Positions 70 through 42,845 of a stretch of DNA of 64,000 nt are shown here, piece by piece. The position numbers and the translations under genes are program-made. Location of the stretch: the NCBI GenBank assembly GCA_944383015.1, contig CALWOC010000001.1, forward strand, positions 489,976 through 553,975, written 5' to 3'. The stretch comes from an uncultured Clostridia bacterium. GTDB lineage: Bacteria > Bacillota > Clostridia > TANB77 > CAG-465. Numbering within the stretch: the stretch's first letter is position 1; the number at the start of each line of letters is the position of its first letter. The notes beneath the pieces were generated by a model. It ran no database searches. It was not told the DNA's origin and saw nothing but the letters and a program-made list of their open reading frames with translations.

Positions 70-1134
70 TTATATACTTCCTGTATTTATTAAATTCTCT
101 CTATGTGAAAGTATTTTATTACTATATGCTCTATCTATTATTCCTTGACTAAAGCATGAATTATAATATCCATTTTCTCCCATATTATATGAATTTAATG
201 CATACACAATCTGAGTTTGATAATCTGAAGTACGAGTAGTTGCTATACTCATATATGTACTTAGCATATATGCTCCAGCTGTCATATTATCATATGGATC
301 ATATAAATTTGTTATACCCAATTTTGAGCTTAAATTAGAAAAATTAGATATTCCGATTTGGCATAAACCTAAATACATTCCTCCATTGCTAGCATTAGGA
401 TTAAAACCACTTTCTGTATACATCAGTGCTATAAACATTGGATAATCTATGCCATATCTTTTACATAGATTATAAGCATATTGTTGATATTCAAGTGGTA
501 ATGAAATATTATATTGAGTAAATCCCCCATCAACAACATCTGTACTAATAGATGTTACAATATCACTTCTTGATACAGTAACCTTAGTTCCAACTTCTAC
601 AACTCTATTTTGTGCCTCCGCTAGTATCTCAGTTCCAATTTCATTTTTTTGAATTACTTTATCTTTTGTTGATTTTACTATATAACTTATAGATTTAGAT
701 CCTTCAACACCCTCTTGTATAACCTCAGTGTCACCTGAATCTCTTTCTTCATTATTTACTGTTTCTTCTTCAAATGGTATTGTTTCAATCTCTTCCTTAA
801 CACTAGCAATTATTGGAGCATATGATTCTCTAACACTATCAATATCAAAAGCTTCTTGCTCATTACTATATACTGTTAATGTCATGCCGTTTACTACTCT
901 TGATTTTTCTGATGGTTCTACTATAGCATTATCATTTAAGTATATACTATTTTGAAGTAGAAAAGCGTCTACTGAACTAGCTAATGTCTTAACAGATTTT
1001 ACATCACCATAATAATTAAATGTTATTGTCTTAAGTTGAGTTGTTATTGCAAGTAATCCAGCTGTAGCAAATATAAGAACTAGACTTACAACCGTAAGAA
1101 TCTTTCTAACTATAAATGCTTTATCTTCTTCCAC
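70..1134 (-). CDS. Membrane-anchored DUF348/G5/SLT lytic transglycosylase
   Basis: 354 residues. A short cytoplasmic N-terminus is followed by one membrane segment (about 10-30), a DUF348-like stretch (about 35-95), an acidic linker, a G5-like domain (about 145-190, ending RVVEVGTKV) and a C-terminal lysozyme-like SLT domain with the catalytic Glu in MYTESGF (about residue 241) followed by GLCQIG and the AYMLSTY/ALNSYN segments of soluble-lytic-transglycosylase folds. It should cleave peptidoglycan glycan strands outside the membrane. DUF348 plus G5 is the layout of YabE/Rpf-like wall remodelling proteins, here with SLT as catalytic unit. GTG start chosen because GGAGG lies 7 nt upstream. Own promoter at 1167-1195. 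Confidence 0.85.
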   Translation of the reverse strand: MEEDKAFIVRKILTVVSLVLIFATAGLLAITTQLKTITFNYYGDVKSVKTLASSVDAFLLQNSIYLNDNAIVEPSEKSRVVNGMTLTVYSNEQEAFDIDSVRESYAPIIASVKEEIETIPFEEETVNNEERDSGDTEVIQEGVEGSKSISYIVKSTKDKVIQKNEIGTEILAEAQNRVVEVGTKVTVSRSDIVTSISTDVVDGGFTQYNISLPLEYQQYAYNLCKRYGIDYPMFIALMYTESGFNPNASNGGMYLGLCQIGISNFSNLSSKLGITNLYDPYDNMTAGAYMLSTYMSIATTRTSDYQTQIVYALNSYNMGENGYYNSCFSQGIIDRAYSNKILSHRENLINTGSI

Positions 1135-1166
1135 AAAAATTCCTCCTAAGATTATTTAACAAGTCT

Positions 1167-1195
1167 ATTATACTATATAATATATTCTTTGTCAA
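1167..1195 (-). promoter_or_regulatory. Promoter of the SLT transglycosylase gene
   Basis: TTGACA (1190-1195) and TATAAT (1167-1172) on the minus strand are separated by exactly 17 bp, a consensus sigma-A promoter about 35 bp upstream of the GTG start. Confidence 0.8.
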
Positions 1196-1346
1196 ATTTA
1201 TTAGTACTTAGTTTAATAAACAACTAACTATAATTATTGTCTAAAAATGATTATTTTTTATCTTTTTTAGTAATATTTATTTATTGCAAATATTAATATT
1301 TAATGATAGAATATTATAAACACTAGAATAAAGGAGGTAATATTTT

Positions 1347-1895
1347 ATGTGGATTATAATAGTAATAGTCGTTATTGTTGCGATTTTACTTTTACTTGTT
1401 GGTTTATACAACAACTTAGTAACTCTAAAAATGAGAGTTAAAAATGCATGGGCACAAATAGATACTCAATTAAAAAGAAGATTTGATTTAATTCCTAATT
1501 TAATTGAGACTGTAAAAGGATATGCTACTCATGAGCAAGAAACATTAGAAAAAGTAGTTGATGCTAGAAATACATACGTTACAGCTTCTTCTGTAGAAGC
1601 TAAGGCAGATGCAAATAATCAATTAACAAATACATTAAAAAATTTATTTGCTCTAGCTGAATCTTATCCAGATTTAAAAGCAAATGAAAACTTTTTAGCA
1701 TTGCAAACTGAATTATCTGGAACTGAAGATAAAATTGCTTATTCAAGACAATTTTATAATGATACTGTTCAAATGTACAACACAGCAATCATGAAATTTC
1801 CAGCAAATCTATTTTCTGGAATGTTTGGATTTAAAGAAGAACCATTCTTTGAAATTAATGAAGCAGAAAAAGATCCTGTTAAAGTACAATTTTAG
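1347..1895 (+). CDS. lemA: LemA family protein
   Basis: 182 residues, the usual LemA length. One N-terminal membrane helix (about 2-22) is followed by the conserved LYNNLVTLKMRVKNAWAQID and RRFDLIPNLIETVKGYA blocks and a long helical bundle. LemA proteins sit in the membrane with helices on one side; their molecular role is unsettled, but they are recurrently coupled to HtpX-type proteases. Here the M48 protease gene starts 9 nt after the lemA stop, with its ribosome site overlapping the stop codon, so the pair is translationally coupled. Start supported by AAGGAGG upstream. Confidence 0.93.
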   Translation: MWIIIVIVVIVAILLLLVGLYNNLVTLKMRVKNAWAQIDTQLKRRFDLIPNLIETVKGYATHEQETLEKVVDARNTYVTASSVEAKADANNQLTNTLKNLFALAESYPDLKANENFLALQTELSGTEDKIAYSRQFYNDTVQMYNTAIMKFPANLFSGMFGFKEEPFFEINEAEKDPVKVQF

Positions 1896-1904
1896 GTGAT
1901 ACTT

Positions 1905-2795
1905 ATGATATTAAAAGCAGTAAGAGACAATAAAATACACACATATTTTATTATTTTAGGTTTCTTTTTAGTTATATCATTAATTATATATTTTATATGT
2001 TACTACTTAAATTTAGGAGTTTTTTCAGTTATAATAGCACTTGGTGTATCGATAGCTACATCAATAATTTCATATTATAACTGCGACAAAATGGTTTTGG
2101 CAATAAATGGTGCAAGACCTGCCACTGAGGAACAAGATAAATTATTATCTAGTGTACTCGATGGGCTATGCATTGCATCTGGTCTTCCAAGGCCGAAATT
2201 ATATGTAATAAATGATCCATCTCCTAATGCTTTTGCGACAGGAAGAAATCCAGAACATGCAGTAGTCTGTGTTACTACTGGTCTTCTTGAAATAATGGAT
2301 AAGTATGAACTAGAGGGTGTACTAGCACATGAATTATCTCATATAAAAAATTATGATATACTATTATCTACAATTGTTTCTGTATTTGTAGGATTTGTAG
2401 TAATTGTTTCAGATTTTACTTTAAGGTTTGGTTTTTTTGGAAAACGTTCAAATGATAATGATAGTAGAAGTTCATTAGATATTATATTATTTATTGTTGG
2501 ATTAATATTTCTAATTTTATCGCCATTATTTACTAAACTTATACAACTTGCAATCTCTAGAAAAAGAGAATATTTAGCAGATGCTACTGCAGTAGAGTTT
2601 ACTAGAAATCCAAACGGACTTATATCTGCACTAAAAAAATTACAAACAGATACCACTACAATGAAAAATGTTAGTAAAGCTACTGCTCATATGTATATTA
2701 ATGAGCCAGATAAAAAACAAAGAGAAAAAACGAATTTATTTTCTACGCATCCACCAATTTCAGAACGTATTGCAAGACTTGAACATATTAATTAG
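1905..2795 (+). CDS. htpX: M48 family membrane metalloprotease, HtpX-like
   Basis: 296 residues from the ATG at 1905, chosen over an in-frame GTG at 1896 because AGGTG lies 6 nt upstream of the ATG. Two membrane helices occupy about residues 15-55. The zinc site HELSH lies near residues 142-146, the third ligand is expected in the later REYLAD motif, and another pair of hydrophobic segments falls between. M48 HtpX proteases degrade damaged membrane proteins with the active site facing the cytoplasm. Second gene of the lemA-htpX operon; a hairpin terminator starts at its stop codon. Confidence 0.92.
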   Translation: MILKAVRDNKIHTYFIILGFFLVISLIIYFICYYLNLGVFSVIIALGVSIATSIISYYNCDKMVLAINGARPATEEQDKLLSSVLDGLCIASGLPRPKLYVINDPSPNAFATGRNPEHAVVCVTTGLLEIMDKYELEGVLAHELSHIKNYDILLSTIVSVFVGFVVIVSDFTLRFGFFGKRSNDNDSRSSLDIILFIVGLIFLILSPLFTKLIQLAISRKREYLADATAVEFTRNPNGLISALKKLQTDTTTMKNVSKATAHMYINEPDKKQREKTNLFSTHPPISERIARLEHIN

Positions 2796-2814
2796 TCTCT
2801 AAATTGAGACTAAT
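2791..2814 (+). terminator. Terminator of lemA-htpX
   Basis: ATTAGTCTC / GAGACTAAT stem with 6-nt loop, followed by a run of T. The stem overlaps the htpX stop codon. Confidence 0.85.
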
Positions 2815-2883
2815 TTTTTTATTTTTCTTTTAAATAAATGAATGATATGATATAATTCTTTTGGTATTAGGAGGATATATATT

Positions 2884-3342
2884 ATGAAAGAAAGAGGATT
2901 TGAAATTGCAAAAGGATACGAAAATAAAGGAATTAATCTTCCAGTAAGAAAAACAGCTCATTCTGCTGGATATGATGTAGAAGCTGCAGAAGATATTATT
3001 ATTCCAAAATATTATCCTGGAATAAAGCCAACTCTTATTCCTACTGGTCTTAAAGCTTACTGTAAAGAAAATGAATGTTTTTTGTTACTTAATCGCAGTA
3101 GCGGACCAAAAAAAGGTTTTTTAATGGCTAACAGTGTTGGACTAATAGATTCTGATTACTATGGTAACCCAGATAATGATGGTCATTTTTACTTTTCTTA
3201 CTTTAACTGCTCAGATCATGATATTGAAGTAAAAAAAGGTGATGTAATTGGTCAAGTTGTATTTTTAAATTATTTAACAGTAGATAACGATACTGCAACA
3301 GGAAAAAGAGTTGGTGGATTTGGTTCTACAGACAAAAAATAA
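2884..3342 (+). CDS. dut: dUTP diphosphatase (trimeric type)
   Basis: 152 residues. It should hydrolyse dUTP to dUMP and pyrophosphate, keeping uracil out of DNA and feeding dTMP synthesis. Visible dUTPase motifs in order: AGYDVEA (motif 1, with the metal-binding Asp), NRSSGPKKG (motif 2), GLIDSDYYGN (motif 3), KKGDVIGQVVF (motif 4) and RVGGFGST at the C-terminus (motif 5, P-loop-like). The insert YGNPDNDGHFYFSYFN after motif 3 resembles dUTPase-like proteins of Firmicutes and their phages. Single-gene unit: strong AGGAGG site, terminator directly downstream. Confidence 0.9.
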   Translation: MKERGFEIAKGYENKGINLPVRKTAHSAGYDVEAAEDIIIPKYYPGIKPTLIPTGLKAYCKENECFLLLNRSSGPKKGFLMANSVGLIDSDYYGNPDNDGHFYFSYFNCSDHDIEVKKGDVIGQVVFLNYLTVDNDTATGKRVGGFGSTDKK

Positions 3343-3346
3343 AATT

Positions 3347-3368
3347 AAAGCTATCAAATGATAGCTTT
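3347..3368 (+). terminator. Terminator of dut
   Basis: AAAGCTATC / GATAGCTTT hairpin followed by seven T, 5 bp after the dut stop codon. Confidence 0.85.
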
Positions 3369-3381
3369 TTTTGCTGATATC

Positions 3382-3410
3382 TTAACTTTTGATAATTTGT
3401 ATGTTATAAT
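3382..3410 (+). promoter_or_regulatory. Promoter of the gene at 3434
   Basis: TTAACT (3382-3387), 17 bp, TATAAT (3405-3410); the ribosome site AGGAG follows at 3421. Confidence 0.6.
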
Positions 3411-3433
3411 ATAGTCACTTAGGAGTGATAATT

Positions 3434-4012
3434 GTGCAAGATCTATACATATATGTAGCTAAAGATGTTGCTAGTGATTGCTTAAAATACGGAATAAAGT
3501 TATCTGAATTTGAAAATAGAGTTATTCAACTTAGTGATTCAAATAAAAGAGGAATTCAAGCTTTTCTTTCTCCTAAAGACTCGCCTTTATATTTAGACGA
3601 AAATTTTGAATGTCTTAGAGTAAAAACCAAAGGATTAACAGCAGTAGTTTTTAATAAAATTTGTGAAAATACTGATTTAATAGATAAATTTGTAACTGAT
3701 ATAGAAAAATATAAAATAGGAGACTATGAAATTCCCGAAGCTATTATTTGTTCATCTATACTTTCAGATAATCTATCACTATATAATAAAATAATTGATA
3801 AGCCTTTACTAGTACAAAATTCTAGAGAATTTTATTATGAAAAATGTATTAATGAAATAATAGAAACAGATATGTTTTCTAAATATGAATTATATCAAAC
3901 TCTATTAATACTTGGTGACCAAAAAGGAGTATTAAATGTTGAAAAACACAAAAATGTAAAAATATACACTGATCCTATTAGTAAAAAATCATATACAAAA
4001 AGAAGCAATTAA
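3434..4012 (+). CDS. Unrecognised cytoplasmic protein
   Basis: 192 residues from a GTG start. The AGGAG at 3421-3425 lies 8 nt before this GTG; an upstream in-frame GTG at 3425 overlaps the ribosome site and is rejected. No signal peptide or membrane segment is visible. The sequence looks mixed alpha/beta with a basic C-terminus (KSYTKRSN) that doubles as one arm of a terminator shared with the opposing gene. I do not recognise a family. It is transcribed alone and its neighbours (dut, HlyD-like) give no clear functional hint. Confidence 0.75.
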   Translation: MQDLYIYVAKDVASDCLKYGIKLSEFENRVIQLSDSNKRGIQAFLSPKDSPLYLDENFECLRVKTKGLTAVVFNKICENTDLIDKFVTDIEKYKIGDYEIPEAIICSSILSDNLSLYNKIIDKPLLVQNSREFYYEKCINEIIETDMFSKYELYQTLLILGDQKGVLNVEKHKNVKIYTDPISKKSYTKRSN

Positions 4013-4024
4013 AAATTGCTTCTT
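4000..4024. terminator. Bidirectional terminator
   Basis: AAGAAGCAATT / AATTGCTTCTT inverted repeat between convergent genes ending at 4012 (+) and 4023 (-), with T tracts on both strands. Confidence 0.8.
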
Positions 4025-5240
4025 ATTTTTCTTCTATAACTAGTTCATCATATAACTCTATTTTAAAAGTTGTATCCAAATTATATTTTTTATACTCAGA
4101 TTCTTCCACATTTTCCACTAAAGCAATACTATCACTTTGAGAAATAATTTTAACTGGAACTCTCACATAGTCTGCTCCATATACTAATAACACATAATCA
4201 TAGCCTTGTATTTCATCTTTATAAATTGCATTTAAAGGTACTGCTATTCCTGTCTCAGTATACCAAATAACTTCACATGATAACTTCCTATAATCTACAA
4301 GAGCATCTACTTCATTATCTATTTTAAACAAAGAATAATTACACTCTCCTTCTTTTATATTTTTTACAAGTGTAGCACTAATTACTAAATTTTCCAAATC
4401 AGATATTCTTATTTTATAATTTCGGCCAGCTTTTATATATTCATCATTTTCACCAGTTTGTGATTTTACTAAAAGATAAGTTTTAAAATTATCTACTATT
4501 TTTATTCCAAAATCATTATTGCTATTATTATCATATGCTGATATTAATTTATCAAAATCAGAATAGGAATAACTTTCTATATCATTAAAATCATATGTGT
4601 TTTCTAATAGATCAATCTTATATGTTACCACACCAGATATTGGTGTTAAAATCGTATTATCTGATGTTTTACTTAAATTTTCTAAGTTTTCTCTTTGTGA
4701 TAACAATTCTCTTATTGCAGAACTATCTGGAGAAGCGTTAGCAAGAACTGTAATTTTCTTATATGCTAGTTCATCAAGTTTCGTCTTATATTCCTGAATT
4801 TTCAAATATGAAGTTGTTCCCTGAACTTCATTTGAATAATCAAGAATTTTGTTTTCGATATTAATTAAATCAGCTGAATAAGTATCAGGCAAATCTTTAA
4901 CTAAAGTTTGTATTTGCTTATCTATTTCTGCTATTTGCCTTTGATATTCATCATAACTATCATTTTGATAAGTTGCAATCACTTCATTTTCTCTTGCTCT
5001 TCTTCCCTGTTCTACAATTGCTGTTATTGCTTGATTCTCATCATAATCTATTACTGTTTCATTTTTTATAACATACAAGTTAGTTTCAACTGAATGCTCA
5101 ATATCACCACTAACTACTGTATAAATCGTTTTTTGTTTAAGTTCAGATTTTGATAGATAAATAATCAAAAAAACTAATATAATTAGTAAAACTATAATAA
5201 TTCTAATATTTGATTTAAAAAAACCAATTACTTTTTCCAT
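4023..5240 (-). CDS. HlyD/RND-adaptor-like membrane fusion protein
   Basis: 405 residues. One N-terminal membrane helix (about 10-30) precedes an extracytoplasmic part with the expected order for membrane-fusion adaptors: a half-lipoyl segment (VVSGDIEHSVET ... IVEQGRRARENEVIATYQN), a helical hairpin (about 95-195, coiled-coil character), a second lipoyl half (LTPISGVVTYKID) and beta-barrel segments. In Gram-positives such proteins usually work with an ABC exporter, but no pump gene is adjacent. It is the last gene of a run behind mutL and miaA (14-bp gap to miaA). The operon position near DNA/RNA maintenance genes is common in Clostridia but functionally unexplained. Confidence 0.7.
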   Translation of the reverse strand: MEKVIGFFKSNIRIIIVLLIILVFLIIYLSKSELKQKTIYTVVSGDIEHSVETNLYVIKNETVIDYDENQAITAIVEQGRRARENEVIATYQNDSYDEYQRQIAEIDKQIQTLVKDLPDTYSADLINIENKILDYSNEVQGTTSYLKIQEYKTKLDELAYKKITVLANASPDSSAIRELLSQRENLENLSKTSDNTILTPISGVVTYKIDLLENTYDFNDIESYSYSDFDKLISAYDNNSNNDFGIKIVDNFKTYLLVKSQTGENDEYIKAGRNYKIRISDLENLVISATLVKNIKEGECNYSLFKIDNEVDALVDYRKLSCEVIWYTETGIAVPLNAIYKDEIQGYDYVLLVYGADYVRVPVKIISQSDSIALVENVEESEYKKYNLDTTFKIELYDELVIEEK

Positions 5241-34973: not shown

Positions 34974-35666
34974 CTAAATTTTCTCTAAATTTTTACAGAT
35001 ATCAAATTGAGTCTGCGTAAGCTTTCCCTTTTTCCTTGAAACTAACTCAGTTACATTTTGTATTATAGAATTTTCACTAATGCAATTATTATCAAAAGAA
35101 ACTTTCTTTTTAAGCTTATTAAGTTTTCCTGCAATATCTTTTATATCCTTTAAATCAAATTTATCATAAGCATCATACCAATCATTACATATCTCTTTAA
35201 AATTATCTACTTTATCTAAACATTTAGTAATACCATTATATAGTTTTGACTTAAAGTCTTTGCTTGAGATAAATCCTTTCAAGCTTTCAAAGAAATCTTC
35301 AATATAATTATAAAATATGTTACCATACTTTTTAGCATTTTCTACTATTCCTACTCCAATATTAATAGAAGTAGTAAGTCCACCTTTAAAAGCTGTTTCT
35401 ACCATTTTATCTATCTGAGTTAAATTATCTTTTTTTATTCCGATTACACTAAGTCCTTCATTTATACTACTACTTACTGCAACCTTAATTATATTTAAAA
35501 AATCTCTTTCTTTAAGAGCTTCTTTTACATCACTTAATATCTCCTTAATATGCTCATTAACAGGCATTGATTTAATGATATAATTAGCTCCTTTTTCTAT
35601 TACCTTTGATATTATATTAGATACTTCTGTTTTATTTTTTTCTATTTCTATATTCTCATTATTCAT
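34974..35666 (-). CDS. Unrecognised helical protein of the VirB4/CpaE-like operon
   Basis: 230 residues, predominantly amphipathic helices, with a small-residue stretch AFKGGLTTSINIGVGIVENAKKYGN that could form a membrane-associated or packing helix. C-terminus basic (SRKKGKLTQTQFDICKNLEKI). No signal peptide or clear transmembrane segment and no recognised family. It overlaps the CpaE-like gene by 8 nt and has its own AGGAGG, so it is the last gene of this operon and probably works with the two ATPases. Confidence 0.7.
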   Translation of the reverse strand: MNNENIEIEKNKTEVSNIISKVIEKGANYIIKSMPVNEHIKEILSDVKEALKERDFLNIIKVAVSSSINEGLSVIGIKKDNLTQIDKMVETAFKGGLTTSINIGVGIVENAKKYGNIFYNYIEDFFESLKGFISSKDFKSKLYNGITKCLDKVDNFKEICNDWYDAYDKFDLKDIKDIAGKLNKLKKKVSFDNNCISENSIIQNVTELVSRKKGKLTQTQFDICKNLEKI

Positions 35667-36798
35667 AATTATCCTCCTTATATTTTAAAATATTATCTAT
35701 CAATTTACATTTTAATTTAAATAACTTATTAATATTTAATTTTTTTAATATATATTTTAAATTATATCTTAAATATTTTTCACTAAATTTATTGTTATAA
35801 CTTAAAATAATACTAAATTTAACATTCCCATTTATATTAAGATTTTTATCCCTTGCTATAGTTTGAATCTTATTTTTAAAAAAAGATTTATTACAGATTA
35901 TATATGAATACAATAATAACTCTTTTTCTATATATATAGTATCAAGTAAATATTCCTTAAAAGATTTTTTTGAAGGTTCTATAATGTGAAGTAAATTATA
36001 ATTATTTTGCTTTGCTATACTATATATTTTATTTATCATAAATGTAGATGTATCTACAATAACATAGTCATAATATAATTGTAGACTGTTTATTATATTT
36101 GTAATCGTATTAGAACTTGGTATGGGAATTGGCTTAGAATTTAATATATACTTTAAATTTTGATATTTACTATCACAAGTTTCATAATTTTTGATATCTT
36201 TTAATGTTTTATTTTCTAAATCACTTATATAATCTATAAGTGAATAGTTTTTATTTAAATTTAAGTATGTATCTAAAGTTGGTGTTACAAAATTCATATC
36301 AATTACAACAACTTTTTTATTTTTATCTTTAGCTATTATATTTGATATCAAAAGTGAAACTATTGTCTTTCCTACACACCTACTACCAGTAACACATATA
36401 ACTTTATTATTTTTTATTGGTATTGTAGAACTTTTATATACAACAATTTGAGGGTTTTCTATTAAATCAACGAGAGTGTCTAAATTAAGCTTAATTCCCT
36501 CTATTATACTAAACACTTCTTTTGAGAATAAAAATTCTTTTAAATCCTGTTCTAGTTTTTTTACTAATACTATAATCTGTATATCTTTAATTTGTTTTTT
36601 TAAATCGACAATTAAATCTTTAAATTCAATTTTTCCTTTTATATCTTCTTTTATTATCAATATACATTTTTCATTATTTGAAATTAAGTTATATATTATT
36701 TCTGTAGATTCTGCTAAATAAATATTATAAGTATCACTATACTTTATAGTAATTCTTTCTTCTAATACCCTATTATTTATTGCCAATATCATTCTCAT
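35659..36798 (-). CDS. CpaE/TadZ-like ATPase with receiver-like N-domain
   Basis: 379 residues. The N-terminal 115 residues look like a degenerate response-regulator fold (CILIIKEDI, QIIVLVKKL), followed by a MinD/ParA-type ATPase with P-loop GSRCVGKT (138-145), KKVVVIDMNF (switch I region) and YDYVIVDTSTF (Walker B region near 235). The signature first Lys of the deviant Walker A (KGGxGKT) is absent here, so ATP-driven dimerisation may differ. CpaE/TadZ proteins position Tad-type pilus secretion machines. No Tad pilin, prepilin peptidase or TadB/C gene is nearby; instead the partner is a VirB4-type ATPase, with whose gene it overlaps by 26 nt. Confidence 0.75.
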   Translation of the reverse strand: MRMILAINNRVLEERITIKYSDTYNIYLAESTEIIYNLISNNEKCILIIKEDIKGKIEFKDLIVDLKKQIKDIQIIVLVKKLEQDLKEFLFSKEVFSIIEGIKLNLDTLVDLIENPQIVVYKSSTIPIKNNKVICVTGSRCVGKTIVSLLISNIIAKDKNKKVVVIDMNFVTPTLDTYLNLNKNYSLIDYISDLENKTLKDIKNYETCDSKYQNLKYILNSKPIPIPSSNTITNIINSLQLYYDYVIVDTSTFMINKIYSIAKQNNYNLLHIIEPSKKSFKEYLLDTIYIEKELLLYSYIICNKSFFKNKIQTIARDKNLNINGNVKFSIILSYNNKFSEKYLRYNLKYILKKLNINKLFKLKCKLIDNILKYKEDNYE

Positions 36799-38437
36799 TT
36801 ACAATACCTCTTTCAAACTCATTAGGTGTTATTTTTAGCTTTACATTATTTTTATCTATAAGTAATAATGTCTCAGTTTTTTTAAGTGATAAAATACTAT
36901 TATAGTCCACGCTTAAATTGTCACTAATTTTTTTAACTTCAGAATAACTTGATTTAAAAAGGAATTTAAAATTTGAATTGTTTAAAATTGTATTTGCATA
37001 TATTCCATTTTTATATCTATAAAAATCTGTTATTTCTTGTGTTATTGTTACAATTGAAGCATTTCTTTTTCTTATTGTCTTATATACATTAAAAATCACT
37101 TCTAAAGTCTTTTCCTCGTATGCAAATTTCCAAAGCTCATCAATATATATAATAGTTTTTGTATCATAAATAGATGTCATTATATAGTTAAAAATCATAG
37201 ATACTAAAAAGGAATTATTTACTATCTCAGACATATTTAAAACATATAATTTATTATCTTTTTTTATATTTGTTTTTTTTGAAAAAAATTTTAATTCATT
37301 TTGTATTAGTTTAATTAGTATTTCTCTTTGTTCTGTATCATCTAAATAATTTACTAAATCTTTAAGTGTTGGAAAACTATCGCTTGATTTAATTTCAAAT
37401 TCTAAATAAATATTTTCATCTTCTAACTTTGCTACTGACATAATATCATTTGATATATTAAAACTACTATATAATTCATGTAGTTTTTGTCTAAAATACT
37501 TCATATCTATTTCATGAAATCCATTTATAAAGAAGAGTACCTTTTCTATTTTTTTATCTAAAAAGCTATCTTGCTTTATATCATTATTAGTTATTTCAAG
37601 TATATTTATATAAGTATCATAAAATAAAGAAGTTCCAAAAAGTCTATTACATAAATTTAAATACTCTCCTTCAATATCTAAGATAATTTGTTTTCGATTT
37701 AAAAAGAAATTTCTAATAATAAATAGCTTAGTAAAATATGATTTTCCAGAGCCACTGCTTCCAAAAATACAAATATTTGCATTTTCATATTTAGGGCTAA
37801 AAATGTCTAGCATACAGATCTTATTTTCATTTGTATACCCAATTAATACTCCATCTTGATCTATAAAATTAGTAGTATAAAAAGGAAAAATATTTGCAAG
37901 TGCATCAGTAGTTATATAAATATCATTTAATAATTCTATATTTTTTAATGTTAATGGTAAATTTGATAGATAAAATTCTAAGTGTCTAAAATTTGTTATT
38001 TCTACACTTATTCCTTTTGAAAAAAATTTTGCTTTAATTGAAAAAATATTTTTTAATAATTGATTAAAATCATAAGAATAAAAAGTAAATAATAATGATA
38101 TTAAATATATTTCTTGGTTTTCAACTTGTATCTTTTTTCTTAAATTTGAAGATTCATCTTTTGTAATACTTAGTACATCTATATTTCTTTGATTTTTATT
38201 TACTGTACTTATCTCACTACTTACAACACCAATATTATATGTCAAACTATTTAATACTTTTATTGGATCTTGCTTACTAATATATATTGAAAAATCATAA
38301 TTTAAATTTTGAGGAATTTCTTTTATAATATCTAGAAAAAATATTGTACTCGGAAGAAACTTTACACTTAATGAAATAATATACTTTTCGTTTAATTTAA
38401 TATACCTAAAATTAGTGTTATCTATTATAGTTGGCAA
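36773..38437 (-). CDS. VirB4/TraC-type ATPase, C-terminal polypeptide of a split protein
   Basis: 554 residues as given from TTG at 38437. Motifs: Walker A GSSGSGKS (226-233) after a NANICIFG strand, LDIEGEYLNL, Walker B TIIYIDELWKF (about 428-438) and SIVTITQEITDFY. The order and the N-terminal alpha/beta region match TraC/VirB4 ATPases that energise type IV secretion. The usual N-terminal domain is encoded by the preceding gene, in the -1 frame. The TTG has no ribosome site. GAGGT lies 6 nt before an in-frame ATA at 38455 that overlaps the upstream stop as ATAG, so initiation may be at this rare codon. Function without other secretion genes is unclear. Confidence 0.8.
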   Translation of the reverse strand: MPTIIDNTNFRYIKLNEKYIISLSVKFLPSTIFFLDIIKEIPQNLNYDFSIYISKQDPIKVLNSLTYNIGVVSSEISTVNKNQRNIDVLSITKDESSNLRKKIQVENQEIYLISLLFTFYSYDFNQLLKNIFSIKAKFFSKGISVEITNFRHLEFYLSNLPLTLKNIELLNDIYITTDALANIFPFYTTNFIDQDGVLIGYTNENKICMLDIFSPKYENANICIFGSSGSGKSYFTKLFIIRNFFLNRKQIILDIEGEYLNLCNRLFGTSLFYDTYINILEITNNDIKQDSFLDKKIEKVLFFINGFHEIDMKYFRQKLHELYSSFNISNDIMSVAKLEDENIYLEFEIKSSDSFPTLKDLVNYLDDTEQREILIKLIQNELKFFSKKTNIKKDNKLYVLNMSEIVNNSFLVSMIFNYIMTSIYDTKTIIYIDELWKFAYEEKTLEVIFNVYKTIRKRNASIVTITQEITDFYRYKNGIYANTILNNSNFKFLFKSSYSEVKKISDNLSVDYNSILSLKKTETLLLIDKNNVKLKITPNEFERGIVNENDIGNK

Positions 38438-38451
38438 AAAGTTATCGCTTT

Positions 38452-38997
38452 CTATATTAAGACCTCTTTATTTAAGTTTTCATATAAAACAGTGCTAATA
38501 CTCTTCTTTGTTTTAAGTCTTTTTGTATTGCAACCAACATAATCTAATTTTTTTATAACACTATCTAACTGCGTAATATCAAAACTAGTTTCCCTATTTA
38601 TTGAAATTATAATATAGTATTTAGTTGTATATATCATTTCTTCTTCTAAATTTTTACTTATATTGCTTAAGTATTCATTCATTAATGAAATATAATTTTG
38701 ACTCGAATTTTTAGTTATAACTTTAGCTAAATTATTTATATAGCTTTCTACATTGATTTTTTTGTTTGAAATATAAATTTGAAAATCATAATTTAATTCA
38801 CGAAGAAATTCATTATATAGATTTAAAATATTAGATTGAACATCCATTGAGAAATTTAAAAATGTAACAGGCTCTATTTCATATATGTATACTTTTTTTA
38901 CTACATCTTTATCCTTTAATAAAATATAGTTATCTGTTACATCAATAAAATTAAATAAATTATTCATACTTTCGTATTTGATATTGCATCCCTCCAT
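38452..38997 (-). CDS. VirB4/TraC N-terminal domain protein
   Basis: 181 residues counted from the ATG at 38997. The segment VYIYEIEPVTFLNFSMDVQSNILNLYNEFLRELNYDFQIYISNKK resembles the N-terminal domain of TraC-like ATPases in clostridial conjugative elements, where it is fused to the ATPase. Here a TAG ends it 17 nt before the next usable TTG. The start is uncertain: the only ribosome site, GGAGGG (38990-38995), lies inside the frame, 7 nt before an ATC at 38982; the next ATG is at 38967, while the ATG at 38997 would be almost leaderless. First gene of the operon. Confidence 0.7.
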   Translation of the reverse strand: MEGCNIKYESMNNLFNFIDVTDNYILLKDKDVVKKVYIYEIEPVTFLNFSMDVQSNILNLYNEFLRELNYDFQIYISNKKINVESYINNLAKVITKNSSQNYISLMNEYLSNISKNLEEEMIYTTKYYIIISINRETSFDITQLDSVIKKLDYVGCNTKRLKTKKSISTVLYENLNKEVLI

Positions 38998-39009
38998 TTC
39001 ACATATATT

Positions 39010-39038
39010 CTTATACCACTAGTACTTTAATACGTCAA
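39010..39038 (-). promoter_or_regulatory. Promoter of the VirB4/CpaE-like operon
   Basis: TTGACG (39033-39038), 17 bp, TATAAG (39010-39015) on the minus strand. The 17-bp operator at 39058 begins 19 bp upstream of this -35. Confidence 0.75.
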
Positions 39039-39057
39039 CATATTTTTCCATTTTTTT

Positions 39058-39074
39058 CGTCGCAACTTTCGACA
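39058..39074. promoter_or_regulatory. Operator copy 1 (Spo0A-box-like)
   Basis: CGTCGCAACTTTCGACA on the plus strand; on the minus strand it contains TGTCGAA, the Spo0A-box heptamer, followed by a degenerate second half TTGCGACG. It lies in the divergent region between the VirB4 operon and the small-gene cluster, 19 bp from the minus -35 and about 30 bp before the TATAAT of the plus-strand cluster. An identical motif (one centre mismatch) is at 40227. Confidence 0.65.
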
Positions 39075-39103
39075 GTAATAATCACAAACTTTATTTTAGT
39101 GCA

Positions 39104-39109
39104 TATAAT
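39104..39109 (+). promoter_or_regulatory. -10 element of the small-gene cluster
   Basis: TATAAT with no recognisable -35. The operator copy 1 occupies roughly -42 to -58, a position used by Spo0A at promoters it activates. Confidence 0.45.
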
Positions 39110-39132
39110 TAAACTATATAGGAGATGATATT

Positions 39133-39291
39133 ATGAATGAAAATAATGAATTAAATCAAAAACTTATGGGAATACTTGGATCTTTAGATAAAGATAAAAT
39201 AGAGCAAGTTACAAAAATGGTTCAAAATATGTCTAGTGATGATCTAAATAATATTGCTAAAATGTTTGGTATCAATAACAAAAAGAAATAG
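39133..39291 (+). CDS. Small helical protein (52 residues)
   Basis: ATG to TAG with GGAG 8 nt upstream. Two amphipathic helices: NQKLMGILGSLDKDKIEQV and a second with MVQNMSSDDLNNIAKMF, ending in a lysine tail. No membrane segment. Followed 2 nt later by the next gene, so translation is coupled. The family is not named to my knowledge; similar small helical ORFs accompany the next two genes in other Clostridia as I recall, but that needs a search. Confidence 0.7.
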   Translation: MNENNELNQKLMGILGSLDKDKIEQVTKMVQNMSSDDLNNIAKMFGINNKKK

Positions 39292-39293
39292 CT

Positions 39294-39677
39294 ATGAACG
39301 AAGAAAATAAGGATGCACTAAATAATCTAATACATAGCATCCAAGAAAAAATGGGAAATAATGTAGAAAATAGTGATGAAGCTTCACCAAACATTTCATC
39401 ACTATTAAACACATTAAATTCTAGCAATAATTCATCACAAGAAAACGAAAAAAAGCAAGAAGACACTAATAATTTCTTCAATTCAATTGATCCAAGTATA
39501 TTTTTAAAAATACAACAAATAATGGGAGCATTAAATAGTAGTAGTCCTCAAAAAGATTTACTAATATCTTTAAAACCATTCTTAAGAAAATCAAGACAAG
39601 ATAAAATGGGAGACTATTTAACAATCCTAAGTGTGATATCTGTTTTAGAATCATTTAAAAACAAAGGTAGTGATTAG
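39294..39677 (+). CDS. Small Ser/Asn-rich protein of the operator-flanked cluster
   Basis: 127 residues. The N-terminal 70 residues are polar and repetitive in Asn/Ser (SSLLNTLNSSNNSSQENEKK), probably disordered. The C-terminal part is a conserved-looking helical segment with DPSIFLKIQQIMGAL, LLISLKPFLRKSRQDKM and YLTILSVISVLESF. No ribosome site is obvious; its ATG is 2 nt after the previous stop, consistent with coupling. Function unknown; the Spo0A-like operator upstream points to a sporulation-stage role. Confidence 0.7.
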   Translation: MNEENKDALNNLIHSIQEKMGNNVENSDEASPNISSLLNTLNSSNNSSQENEKKQEDTNNFFNSIDPSIFLKIQQIMGALNSSSPQKDLLISLKPFLRKSRQDKMGDYLTILSVISVLESFKNKGSD

Positions 39678-39678
39678 T

Positions 39679-40032
39679 ATGTTTTTTAATAATTATTATC
39701 CATATTATAATAATCATAACTTTCATAGAAATTATTATAATAATTATATGCAAAATTTTAATAATGTCGATAGTCAAAAAAAAGATACTGAATCGGAAAA
39801 TACCGATACAATACCTTTTAAACCCTTTGAGTCAAACCAAACTTCTAATACAAGTCAAGATAGAAGTAACAAATTTAATTTGTTTGGTTTCTCTTTTGAA
39901 ATTGATGATTTAATTCTCATTGGACTAATCATATTATTATTCTTAGAATCAGATAAAAATTATGCTTTAATAATAATACTTGGTTTAATCCTATTAAATG
40001 TGAACTTAGGAGATATCCTTAAGCTCTTTTAA
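39679..40032 (+). CDS. Small Asn/Tyr-rich membrane-tail protein
   Basis: 117 residues from the ATG at 39679, one base after the previous stop codon. The N-terminus is rich in Asn, Tyr, Phe and His (FNNYYPYYNNHNFHRNYYNN), reminiscent of coat-type proteins; a polar middle follows, and the C-terminus has two short hydrophobic helices (DDLILIGLIILLFLES and YALIIILGLILLNV). The 3' end overlaps the opposing Spo0E-like gene by 27 nt. I know this domain combination only as an unnamed clostridial type. Confidence 0.65.
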   Translation: MFFNNYYPYYNNHNFHRNYYNNYMQNFNNVDSQKKDTESENTDTIPFKPFESNQTSNTSQDRSNKFNLFGFSFEIDDLILIGLIILLFLESDKNYALIIILGLILLNVNLGDILKLF

Positions 40033-40155
40033 ATAATACTCCGCAAGTAAAATATCAATCTCCTTACTTGTTTTTAATATTTGAGAATATTTACAACCTG
40101 TTTCAATTTCTTTATCTAGTTTTCGCTTTAAATTTTCAATTTCTTCTAATATCAT
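40006..40155 (-). CDS. Spo0E-like sporulation regulatory protein
   Basis: 49 residues, ATG with AGGAG 6 nt upstream. The sequence forms a helical hairpin: ILEEIENLKRKLDKEIETG, then KTSKEIDILLAEYYLKEL, whose S-x-E-x-D-x-L-L-x-x-Y-Y fits the Spo0E/Aspartyl-phosphatase signature (SQxLDxLIxxYY), including the Asp. Such proteins dephosphorylate Spo0A~P and restrain sporulation. A consensus promoter and an operator with a Spo0A-box heptamer lie upstream, suggesting feedback. Too short for standard ORF cut-offs but well supported. Confidence 0.82.
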   Translation of the reverse strand: MILEEIENLKRKLDKEIETGCKYSQILKTSKEIDILLAEYYLKELKDIS

Positions 40156-40178
40156 GCAAAACTCCTCTTTTTTTAGTA

Positions 40179-40207
40179 TTTATATCATTAGTTCTTTGAT
40201 AAGTCAA
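40179..40207 (-). promoter_or_regulatory. Promoter of the Spo0E-like gene
   Basis: TTGACT (40202-40207), 17 bp, TATAAA (40179-40184) on the minus strand. The operator at 40227 begins 19 bp upstream of the -35, the same spacing as at the VirB4 operon. Confidence 0.78.
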
Positions 40208-40226
40208 TAATTTTAAGCTTATAATC

Positions 40227-40243
40227 CGTCGCAAGTTTCGACA
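40227..40243. promoter_or_regulatory. Operator copy 2 (Spo0A-box-like)
   Basis: CGTCGCAAGTTTCGACA, differing from copy 1 at 39058 only in the central base. The minus strand carries TGTCGAA. It lies upstream of the Spo0E-like gene and 76 bp after the end of the M16 gene at 40319 (which is transcribed toward it). Confidence 0.65.
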
Positions 40244-40318: not shown

Positions 40319-41608
40319 TTATTTTGATATTATTTTTGATGATACTCTATTTACTTCGTTTAATTTATTTAAAAATTCTTTTATATCATTTTCATTTATA
40401 TTTTTAAGAATCTCCATATCTGCATATACATTTGTATCATCTAGTATTGAGTCTATAACTCTTCTATAACTTACATTTAAATTATCTGATGAAAGAATAG
40501 CTTCTCCAATTTTTTTACGCTTTATTACTTCAAATAGTTCTTTATCTATTGGAGTATTTTTTATTTGATTAATATATTCTAAAATATCTTTTTCTATTCC
40601 TTCTATATCTGTTGAAGTTGTTGATATTATAACATGTGAGAATGTATCACTTCCCTCATATTGCATATCTATAAAACCGTTTATTTTACCACTATTATAT
40701 TCTTTTTCAAAGAAATCTGATTGTTTTGAAAAATACATGTCTGAAATTATACTTACTATTATTTCATTTCTTACTATTTCTTCATTTTTAGCAAGATCTA
40801 ACTTGTATCCTATACAAAGTTGTGGTAAATATATTTCCATTTTCTGTATAATTTCTTTTTGAGCAATTTCTTTTGGCTCTTCTTCAGAAAATTTTTCAAT
40901 CTTTGCATTAGTATCTACTTTATTTTCATACTTTTTTATATTCTCTTCAATTACATCAATTGTTTTATCAACCTCAACATCTCCAACAACTAAGAAAAAC
41001 ATATTCTGTGGACTATAGAAAGTATTATAGCAAGTGTAAAGTAGTTCTTTTGTTATATGTGATATTGACTCTATTGTACCTGCAATATCTATTCTAACGG
41101 GATTTTTTTGATACATAGCTCTTAATGCATTAAAGTACACCATAAAAGTAGGATCATCATCATACATACTAATTTCTTGACCAATAATTCCTTGCTCTTT
41201 TTGAACATTTTCATCTGTAAAATATGGCTCTTTAATTAACTTTACTAGCATTGCTATAGATTCTTCAAACTTTTCAGAAGTCTCAAAAAAATATACAGTC
41301 TGATCAAAAGAAGTATAGGCATTAGAAGAAACGCCCATTTTAGAAAATAAATCTAAAGCATTTGCCCCTTCTTTTTCAAATAATTTATGCTCTAAAAAGT
41401 GAGCTATACCATCTGGAACTTTAATACGTTTTCCTGTTGTAATATCCACAAAATCATTTACAACAGAGCCATACTTTGTACCAAACATACCAATCTTTTT
41501 TCCAAAGCCTTTTTTTTGACATATATATACTTTAAGTCCATTATCTAATGTTGTACAAAAAGTACTCTCACCTAGCTCTTGCGATACTTCTAAACTCATT
41601 TTACGCAT
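40319..41608 (-). CDS. ymfH: M16 family peptidase, active subunit (YmfH-like)
   Basis: 429 residues. The inverted zinc motif HxxEH is present as AHFLEHKLFE (about residue 70), with the distal Glu expected in EQGIIGQEISMYDD. This is the catalytic half of a two-protein M16B peptidase like Bacillus YmfF-YmfH. The start at 41608 has GGAGG 8 nt upstream and overlaps the YmfF-like gene by 8 nt, so the pair is coupled. Cytosolic, substrate unknown; in Bacillus and streptococci such pairs process small peptides. Confidence 0.9.
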   Translation of the reverse strand: MRKMSLEVSQELGESTFCTTLDNGLKVYICQKKGFGKKIGMFGTKYGSVVNDFVDITTGKRIKVPDGIAHFLEHKLFEKEGANALDLFSKMGVSSNAYTSFDQTVYFFETSEKFEESIAMLVKLIKEPYFTDENVQKEQGIIGQEISMYDDDPTFMVYFNALRAMYQKNPVRIDIAGTIESISHITKELLYTCYNTFYSPQNMFFLVVGDVEVDKTIDVIEENIKKYENKVDTNAKIEKFSEEEPKEIAQKEIIQKMEIYLPQLCIGYKLDLAKNEEIVRNEIIVSIISDMYFSKQSDFFEKEYNSGKINGFIDMQYEGSDTFSHVIISTTSTDIEGIEKDILEYINQIKNTPIDKELFEVIKRKKIGEAILSSDNLNVSYRRVIDSILDDTNVYADMEILKNINENDIKEFLNKLNEVNRVSSKIISK

Positions 41609-42845
41609 TATCTATACCTCCTAAAACAAAGATTTTTTCAATACTAACAAGTTTTGCAACTCTTATTACATCTTCTAATGTAACTTTGCTCATTTTATCT
41701 CTCATATCTTCTACGGTAATATTTGCATCTTTAAAAGCAATAATATTTGCAAATTTCATCTTTGCCATTGCAACTTTTGAGTCTTTCCATTCAAGTAAAT
41801 CTGCCATTAAACTATCTTTTGCACTCTTAAATTCATCACTAGTAATATCTCCATTTTTTATTGCTTCTATCTGCTCTTTTATAACTTCTACAGCTTTATT
41901 ATAATTTTCTTTATTTATTCCAGCAAAAATCACAATTATATCTTTAAATCTATAATACCTAGATCTAACTGTATATGCTAAAGACTCTTTTTCTCTAACA
42001 TTTTGAAATAATTTTGAAGACGGAGTAGTTCCAAGTATTGCATTATACAGATTTAACGCATAAAAATCTTCTATTGAAGCGTTATTTATCCTTAGACCTA
42101 AAGATAGAACACTTTGTGTTGTATCTTGGTATTCGCTAACTTCTTCTATAGTGCTACTTTTTGGTTTTGTAGTATTATATATTAAGTCTGTAATTTCTTT
42201 TGAAGAAAAATCACACTCACCAAACACTTGTTTAAACTTCTCTTCTATATTCTCATATCCTTCTAAATTACCTGATATTATAACTGTTGTACAAGATTTA
42301 ATTAATTCATTATATGCTTTTTTTAATATAGCTTTATTCACATTTTCTACAACTTCTTTTTGTCCATACAAAAATACTCCAAAAGGTTCATCCTTACATA
42401 AAAGTTCTTCTGCCCTTTGTACACCATATTTTAACTTTTCATCTTTTCTTTCATTTATTCTTTCTAAAATAAAACTCTTTTCTCTTTCTATATTCTCATT
42501 TGTCCAATCTGATGGATTATATATCATTTCTTTTAAAAACTTTAGGATATTATCTAATAGCTCCTCTTTATTTGGTAAAAAAGCTCTATTAATATATTCT
42601 ATTTTAAATTCTAAATTATATAGATCACCATATTTTTCAACATTAACATCATATGAAGCTCCATATAACGAATTTAAATACTTTTCTATTTCTTTTTGTG
42701 ATTGATATTTTTTTGAACTTTTTGCCATTAATGCACCAAGAACAGCATTGTTTGAAAATATGCTTTTATCATTTACTTCCATAGTAAAATTATATGAAAT
42801 AAAAATACTTTTGAATTTGTTATTGTTAATCTTATATATTCTCAT
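41601..42845 (-). CDS. ymfF: M16 family peptidase-like, inactive partner (YmfF-like)
   Basis: 414 residues with the two-domain M16 fold pattern (NNAVLGALMAKSSKKYQSQKEIEKYLNSLYGASYDVNVEKYGD near the N-terminus; GLRINNASIEDFYALNLYNAILG and LAYTVRSRYY in the C-terminal domain). The HxxEH zinc motif is absent, so it should serve as the non-catalytic half of the peptidase encoded immediately downstream. The R-x-Y substrate-binding pair appears as RSRYY. Confidence 0.9.
   Translation of the reverse strand: MRIYKINNNKFKSIFISYNFTMEVNDKSIFSNNAVLGALMAKSSKKYQSQKEIEKYLNSLYGASYDVNVEKYGDLYNLEFKIEYINRAFLPNKEELLDNILKFLKEMIYNPSDWTNENIEREKSFILERINERKDEKLKYGVQRAEELLCKDEPFGVFLYGQKEVVENVNKAILKKAYNELIKSCTTVIISGNLEGYENIEEKFKQVFGECDFSSKEITDLIYNTTKPKSSTIEEVSEYQDTTQSVLSLGLRINNASIEDFYALNLYNAILGTTPSSKLFQNVREKESLAYTVRSRYYRFKDIIVIFAGINKENYNKAVEVIKEQIEAIKNGDITSDEFKSAKDSLMADLLEWKDSKVAMAKMKFANIIAFKDANITVEDMRDKMSKVTLEDVIRVAKLVSIEKIFVLGGIDNA

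Follow-up and report, generated by a model that had tools for sequence, protein, structure and literature searches.

A chromosomal VirB4/TadZ-like locus in Clostridia is likely half of a domesticated type IV secretion system

Why would a chromosome carry a VirB4-type ATPase in one operon with a CpaE-like ATPase, with no relaxase recognised nearby? The question is raised by a locus in a 64,000-nt stretch of the uncultured Clostridia bacterium GCA_944383015.1 (contig CALWOC010000001.1, positions 489,976-553,975), and "the window" below means this whole stretch. A first-pass annotation had described a four-gene minus-strand operon with three divergent small genes, bounded by two near-identical operators, and had supposed that the VirB4 and CpaE-like ATPases act alone. 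The open reading frames (ORFs) and both operators are indeed present. We consider it likely that the locus is half of a type IV secretion system (T4SS), domesticated and without a relaxase, which came from an integrative conjugative element (ICE), became fixed on the chromosome of the window's order and is combined with Tad-type ATPases. The VirB4 operon consists of four genes (basis of each assignment in brackets; dN/dS is the ratio of nonsynonymous to synonymous substitution rates):

38452-38997, minus strand: VB4N, a separate VirB4 N-terminal domain protein of 181 amino acids (NCBIfam VirB4_plasma)
36773-38437, minus strand: VB4C, a VirB4/TraC-type ATPase of 554 amino acids with intact Walker A and B motifs (NCBIfam, Pfam, solved structure 4ag5)
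35659-36798, minus strand: a CpaE/TadZ-like protein of 379 amino acids, predicted receiver plus ParA/MinD-type ATPase (AlphaFold model and fold search)
34974-35666, minus strand: an all-helical protein of 230 amino acids (structure prediction, dN/dS)

Both halves of the split ATPase match the NCBIfam model VirB4_plasma under its curated cut-off (VB4C at 5.8e-42; VB4N at 4.1e-6, aligned to model positions 101-270), and VirB4 also matches the Pfam TraG P-loop family at 2.4e-14 and the solved VirB4 structure 4ag5 at 2.7e-16. All 21 orthologues compared share the same Walker A, Walker B and arginine residues. The call of a VirB4/TraC ATPase with intact Walker motifs is thus borne out, and a VirB4-family ATPase of the kind found in T4SSs is present. 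The division into N- and C-terminal proteins is retained throughout the order, and VB4N is itself constrained (dN/dS 0.09-0.17 against two congeners, the comparison used for all such values here). The relationship with known conjugative ATPases is distant: the bit scores against the NCBIfam element families CD1110 and Mbov_0397 are 130 against a cut-off of 325 and 143 against 590, respectively, and a plasmid search returned only distant conjugative VirB4, with no more than about 25% identity among the matches listed. In a scan of genome contigs, the matches all came from metagenome-assembled genomes (MAGs) of uncultured Clostridia.

For the CpaE-like protein, a sequence search against solved structures was weak, and the fold search was decisive. 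In a model built by AlphaFold with the protein's own orthologues (predicted local distance difference test, pLDDT, 80), residues about 1-117 form a receiver fold (Spo0F, Z 15.5) and residues about 128-358 a ParA/MinD fold. The PDB entry 3fkq, described as an NtrC-like two-domain protein and which we take to be Eubacterium rectale TadZ, aligns to both domains (residues 1-355, Z 18.1, 312 residues) with a large interdomain root-mean-square deviation (13.4). The modelled protein would therefore be a receiver fused to a ParA/MinD-type ATPase, as in TadZ, in line with its earlier assignment as CpaE-like. In a family without TadA and TadB (f3; loci L049 and L062), its Walker motif is lost in some members, which suggests that its role as an ATPase may depend on TadA/TadB. 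The helical protein is modelled with high confidence (pLDDT 92) and found no meaningful match in the PDB fold search (best E 0.59); its dN/dS of 0.03-0.04 is among the strongest constraints in the operon.

The first-pass annotation had also stated that no mating-pore gene is present. This is correct at the locus; in the genome, however, a cluster of VirB2-VirB6-PrgI-dnaD-dnaI, without VirD4, lies some 51 kb away from the VirB4 operon (G000:C1:476362-477813, G000 being the window genome). Against the order's own profiles, its VirB6 scores 8.3e-37, its PrgI-like (VirB3) protein 5e-17 and its VirB2-like pilin 7e-27, so that the window genome holds the VirB6 and VirB3/PrgI partners and the VirB2-type pilin of a T4SS. 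This second cluster recurs across the order, where it adjoins dnaD-dnaI and in many genomes gyrA, and in relatives it comprises a VirB2-like pilin, VirB6 and PrgI/VirB3, often along with VirD4. In sister genera, moreover, two further genes separate the CpaE-like from the helical gene in the VirB4 operon: one encodes a TadA/VirB11-type ATPase (Pfam T2SSE 3.4e-23; NCBIfam VirB11 1.2e-38 and TadA 7.6e-33), the other a TadB-like T2SSF protein. The idea of VirB4 and CpaE acting alone has to be given up, since VirB2, VirB3 and VirB6 are in the genome and relatives add VirD4, the TadA/VirB11-type ATPase and the TadB-like protein. In the neighbourhoods examined, on which no relaxase profile was run, neither cluster had a recognisable relaxase nearby.

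The window's own sub-clade has a reduced set of these parts. VirD4 was detected in 33 of 54 relatives with profile A8 (TrwB match 7.2e-13), and the same search gave no coupling ATPase in the window genome. The window's operon has neither TadA nor TadB, and no T2SSE ATPase over the cut-off exists in the whole window genome. A phyletic pattern, compiled by hand from the VirB4, VirD4, VirB6 and T2SSE-type ATPase searches, shows the sub-clade to be without VirD4, TadA and the pilus ATPase PilB.

The presence or loss of these parts bears on what such a machine would transport. Because VirD4 stands alongside the T4SS cluster in 33/54 genomes with no relaxase recognised there, it is possible that the system secretes effectors or toxins: VirD4 would recruit proteins destined for the milieu or for neighbouring cells, a channel of VirB4 with VirB2, VirB3 and VirB6 would move them, and the window's sub-clade would have a simplified version. 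We hold this explanation only tentatively, as the neighbourhood of the clusters yielded no candidate effector and the sub-clade lacks VirD4, so that another substrate-loading route would be needed. The same losses recall the DNA-uptake T4SS ComB of Helicobacter. With VirB2, VirB3, VirB4 and VirB6 and without VirD4, a VirB11/TadA-type ATPase or PilB/PilT, the window's sub-clade is similar to ComB, which likewise has neither VirD4 nor VirB11 (PMC12857230). ComEC is universal in the order (54/54 genomes), and it is this together with the missing VirD4 and VirB11-type ATPases that makes uptake a rival worth weighing. We nevertheless judge it quite unlikely, because ComEC is widespread anyway, being found in 10 of 14 control genomes too, and because VirD4, a receptor for export, is retained in most of the order; nor do the clusters have competence genes as neighbours.

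Whether the locus belongs to the chromosome or to a passing element can be read from its distribution. Neighbourhoods were compared in 38 genomes and 80 further contigs. A strong VirB4 orthologue exists in 52 of 57 relatives, spread over five families; the other five (G035, G040, G045, G053 and G054) gave weak, paralogue-level matches only. The split VirB4, CpaE-like and helical genes occur together in most neighbourhoods examined, and a check suggested by the first-pass annotation, on whether the split VirB4/CpaE-like pairing recurs across Clostridia, found the pair in most families of the window's order; family f2 has the split VirB4 alone, with a PrgI-like gene ahead. In one family the operon is located between gyrB and gyrA, downstream of dnaA-dnaN-recF. 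The pair is not common in other orders: the single case there, in L203 (G337, 328-4204), is an unsplit VirB4 of 837 amino acids adjoining a CpaE-like protein, and 21 further genomes of that order lack it.

The distances of VirB4 and GyrA are strongly correlated (Mantel r = 0.94, 58 loci; none of 2000 permutations as high), and inheritance is thus not of the horizontal, patchy kind expected of an ICE. In the tree, the 35 chromosomal VirB4 form one clade (SH-aLRT, the Shimodaira-Hasegawa-like approximate likelihood ratio test, 99), whose sister group consists of VirB4 from other Clostridia, encoded in loci that resemble mobile elements. These sister loci were labelled ICE by neighbourhood, most of them without individual annotation, and the tree contained no VirB4 from Patescibacteria. 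The N/C split is also seen in some element-like loci (L187, L192, L193, L195 and L196). The sister relationship, together with the stepwise loss of VirD4, TadA and TadB, would be expected if the locus were a decaying remnant of an ICE. Order-wide vertical inheritance, purifying selection on all locus genes tested and on the tested genes of both clusters (dN/dS 0.00-0.29), the gyrB-gyrA placement and the conserved operators make such decay very unlikely indeed, and a recent remnant is ruled out by purifying selection and vertical descent. The dN/dS values for dnaD are disregarded, since its coordinates in the other genomes were wrong and the frames contained stops. The first-pass annotation had named an ICE remnant with a relaxase at the site as what would overturn its reading; what was found is vertical descent, and no relaxase in the neighbourhoods examined.

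Loci resembling conjugative elements do occur elsewhere in these genomes. Contig C2 of the window genome carries two ICE-like loci, L206 (94500-113500) and L207 (171000-190000), both with a split VirB4 of their own and a relaxase of the MobA type (Pfam 1e-35) and both separate from the VirB4/CpaE-like locus. Nearly all genomes of the order also encode a second VirB4-like protein of about 650-690 amino acids; the loci bearing it (L208/L209) have the appearance of a conjugative element and yet are strikingly widespread.

These results suggest the following origin for the chromosomal system. An ancestor of the order would have taken a T4SS from an ICE and fixed it on the chromosome, and these uncultured gut Clostridia probably use this retired conjugation apparatus for a purpose of their own. 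VirB2, VirB3, VirB4 and VirB6 elsewhere build the conjugative pilus and the inner-membrane channel. The VirB4/CpaE-like locus would be the motor and positioning half of the machine: VirB4, anchored by VirB3 and VirB6, may extract the VirB2-like pilin or assemble it into a short pilus or channel, which the TadZ-like protein would position at the cell pole or another site. The ancestral machine may also have exported substrates delivered by VirD4. The window's sub-clade would then have lost VirD4, TadA and TadB, leaving VirB2, VirB3, VirB4, VirB6 and the TadZ-like and helical proteins. As these losses leave VirB4 as the sole recognised transport motor, building a pilus or channel would be its simplest job, and the window's machine is best pictured as a putative builder of a pilus or channel that would serve contact or secretion and not conjugation.

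Several observations weigh against this proposal. In the window genome, the two clusters are not linked to one another, and we infer one machine from their shared ancestry and co-occurrence. The Pfam matches of VirB2 and VirB6 are under the curated cut-offs: the VirB2-like pilin falls just below those of TrbC (1.3e-5) and T4SS_pilin (5.3e-5), and the best matches of family members are TrbL at 4e-4 for VirB6 and 0.026 for PrgI, again below cut-offs. Four congeners with the VirB4 locus (G004, G010, G013 and G026) have no clear VirB6 match, and G045, G053 and G054 have the VirB6/VirD4 cluster and no VirB4 orthologue. Neither VirB8 nor VirB1 was recognised in the neighbourhoods, to which the search was confined, and a divergent VirB8 is hard to detect. 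Most of the genomes compared are also MAG-like and fragmented.

How the locus is regulated bears on the remaining suggestion of the first-pass annotation, a role in sporulation. The features between the VirB4 operon and the far operator are:

39059-39073, no strand given: operator 1, GTCGCAACTTTCGAC, before the VirB4 operon (sequence match)
39133-39291, plus strand: small gene s52, 52 amino acids (ORF; dN/dS)
39294-39677, plus strand: small Asn-rich gene s127 (ORF; conserved C-terminal motif)
39670-40032, plus strand: small gene s120 (ORF; Asn/Tyr-rich N-terminus, membrane hairpin)
40006-40155, minus strand: Spo0E-like small protein, 49 amino acids (Pfam PF09388)
40228-40242, no strand given: operator 2, GTCGCAAGTTTCGAC, before the Spo0E-like gene (sequence match)

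The Spo0E-like gene is an addition to the first-pass annotation; it matches Pfam PF09388 at 2.4e-6, above the gathering cut-off. The 15-bp operator has one copy upstream of the VirB4 operon and the other upstream of this gene, and the pattern RTCGCAANTTTCGAC occurs exactly twice in the 1.65-Mb genome, both times at the VirB4 locus (0 matches for the reversed control pattern). On the minus strand, operator 1 is followed after 20 bp by TTGACG-17-TATAAG before the VirB4 operon, and operator 2 after 20 bp by TTGACT-17-TATAAA before the Spo0E-like gene. Co-occurrence of the operators, which the first-pass annotation had proposed to check, holds in 14 of the 28 genomes of the genus (the window's included), where the pair lies on one contig about 1.2-1.5 kb apart; of 23 sites in 14 genomes, 21 have, exactly 20 bp past the operator, a sigma-A type promoter that is close to consensus and has a spacer of 17 bp. 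A shared activator for both units is the natural reading, with one regulator probably controlling the VirB4 operon jointly with the Spo0E-like gene through the twin operators. The operators contain TGTCGAA at 21 of the 23 sites, the core of the Spo0A box, and this core and the Spo0E-like neighbour hint at Spo0A as the regulator. Spo0A remains a candidate only, because the full operator is confined to the VirB4 locus within the genome, for which reason we rejected it as a general Spo0A box. In G021, an operator-like sequence, mostly ATCGCAAATTTCGAC, occurs 15 times with several copies at contig ends, which suggests a repeat element carrying it.

A sporulation apparatus, either a transporter between forespore and mother cell or a polarity module under Spo0A, would account for the Spo0E-like gene under the same operator as the VirB4 operon and for the TGTCGAA cores. 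It would also suit the SpmA/SpmB-like genes (Pfam Gate) that adjoin the operon in L048/L050 and the Spo0A_C matches a few kb from it in genus g3 (L044 and L046); in the latter two loci, a protein that by eye is YabG-like lies between these matches and the operon. However, the operator is unique to the VirB4 locus, unlike a regulon-wide Spo0A box, and was not found ahead of the VirB4 operon in other families; the sporulation neighbours vary by genus; and the family with most loci has the operon among replication genes (dnaA/gyrB/gyrA). As 47 of 54 genomes have SpoIIIAE, replacement of the SpoIIIA channel was rejected; the window genome's own copy is missing beside an N-masked stretch that starts in a SpoIIIAA-like ORF. 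The first-pass annotation had asked whether sporulating species alone carry the module; as the order's genomes nearly all look sporeforming (Spo0A in 52/54 and SpoIVA in 51/54 genomes), co-occurrence is uninformative on this point. A role in sporulation is thus possible and not favoured; on balance we find it unlikely. Equally doubtful is a broader picture that joins it to the domesticated T4SS, namely a hybrid of T4SS core and Tad motor as a core organelle of the whole order, encoded beside origin genes, tied to Spo0A/Spo0E in the window's genus and reusing a conjugation pilus for a cell-cycle or cell-cell task at the entry into sporulation.

Among the small genes, s52 is nearly invariant among the closest congeners and was found only in the window's family, s127 has a conserved C-terminal KPFLRKSRQ motif and occurs in 5/5 fetched genera of that family, and s120 combines an Asn/Tyr-rich N-terminus with a hydrophobic C-terminal membrane hairpin. 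In the window's family the operon has moved: it is flanked by YlbF on one side and, on the opposite side, by the Spo0E-like gene and the M16 peptidase genes. The peptidase pair (window 40319-42845; YfmH/YfmF type, YfmH above the NCBIfam cut-off) adjoins the VirB4 locus in most members of the family.

No description of such a Clostridia system was found in the literature searched, with subscription journals outside its coverage. The nearest published case is the chromosomal T4SS of Patescibacteria, the candidate phyla radiation (CPR), which is likewise relaxase-less and chromosomal with VirB2-like pilins, VirB3, VirB6 and VirD4; its VirB4 is related to T4SSs of monoderm mobile elements, and the system sometimes adjoins dnaA/dnaN (PMC12102498). 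The system described here differs in belonging to the phylum Bacillota, in a split VirB4 joined to TadZ-, TadA- and TadB-type proteins and a novel helical protein, in its gyrB-gyrA placement in one family and in a sub-clade without VirD4. With the VirB4 of Clostridia conjugative elements (CD1110, Mbov_0397) it shares the ATPase family and, in some element-like loci, the N/C split, whereas the chromosomal VirB4 is far under these families' cut-offs, forms a separate clade, is vertically inherited and has no relaxase recognised nearby. The two-domain architecture of TadZ and, in relatives' operons, the TadA-type and TadB-like genes are common to the Tad pilus, but here they are coupled to VirB4, the window's sub-clade has lost TadA/TadB, and the neighbourhoods examined, to which the search was confined, yielded no recognisable Flp prepilin, RcpC-like gene or prepilin peptidase. 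Like the system of the window's sub-clade, the T4SSs ComB of Helicobacter and Ptl of Bordetella do without VirD4 (PMC12857230); they are Gram-negative systems, whereas the Clostridia system has no outer-membrane parts. According to a 2025 review, Gram-positive T4SSs universally lack VirB11, and VirB2 is found there only in Patescibacteria (PMC12857230). On the evidence of its predicted genes, the Clostridia system runs counter to both points and includes TadZ and a TadB-like protein besides: a VirB2-like pilin is encoded by most genomes of this Bacillota order and a VirB11/TadA-type ATPase by many of them, fixed vertically. It would be a second, apparently separate, domesticated monoderm T4SS, and, with VirD4 and TadA/TadB lost in a natural series, it offers a way to ask which component serves which task.

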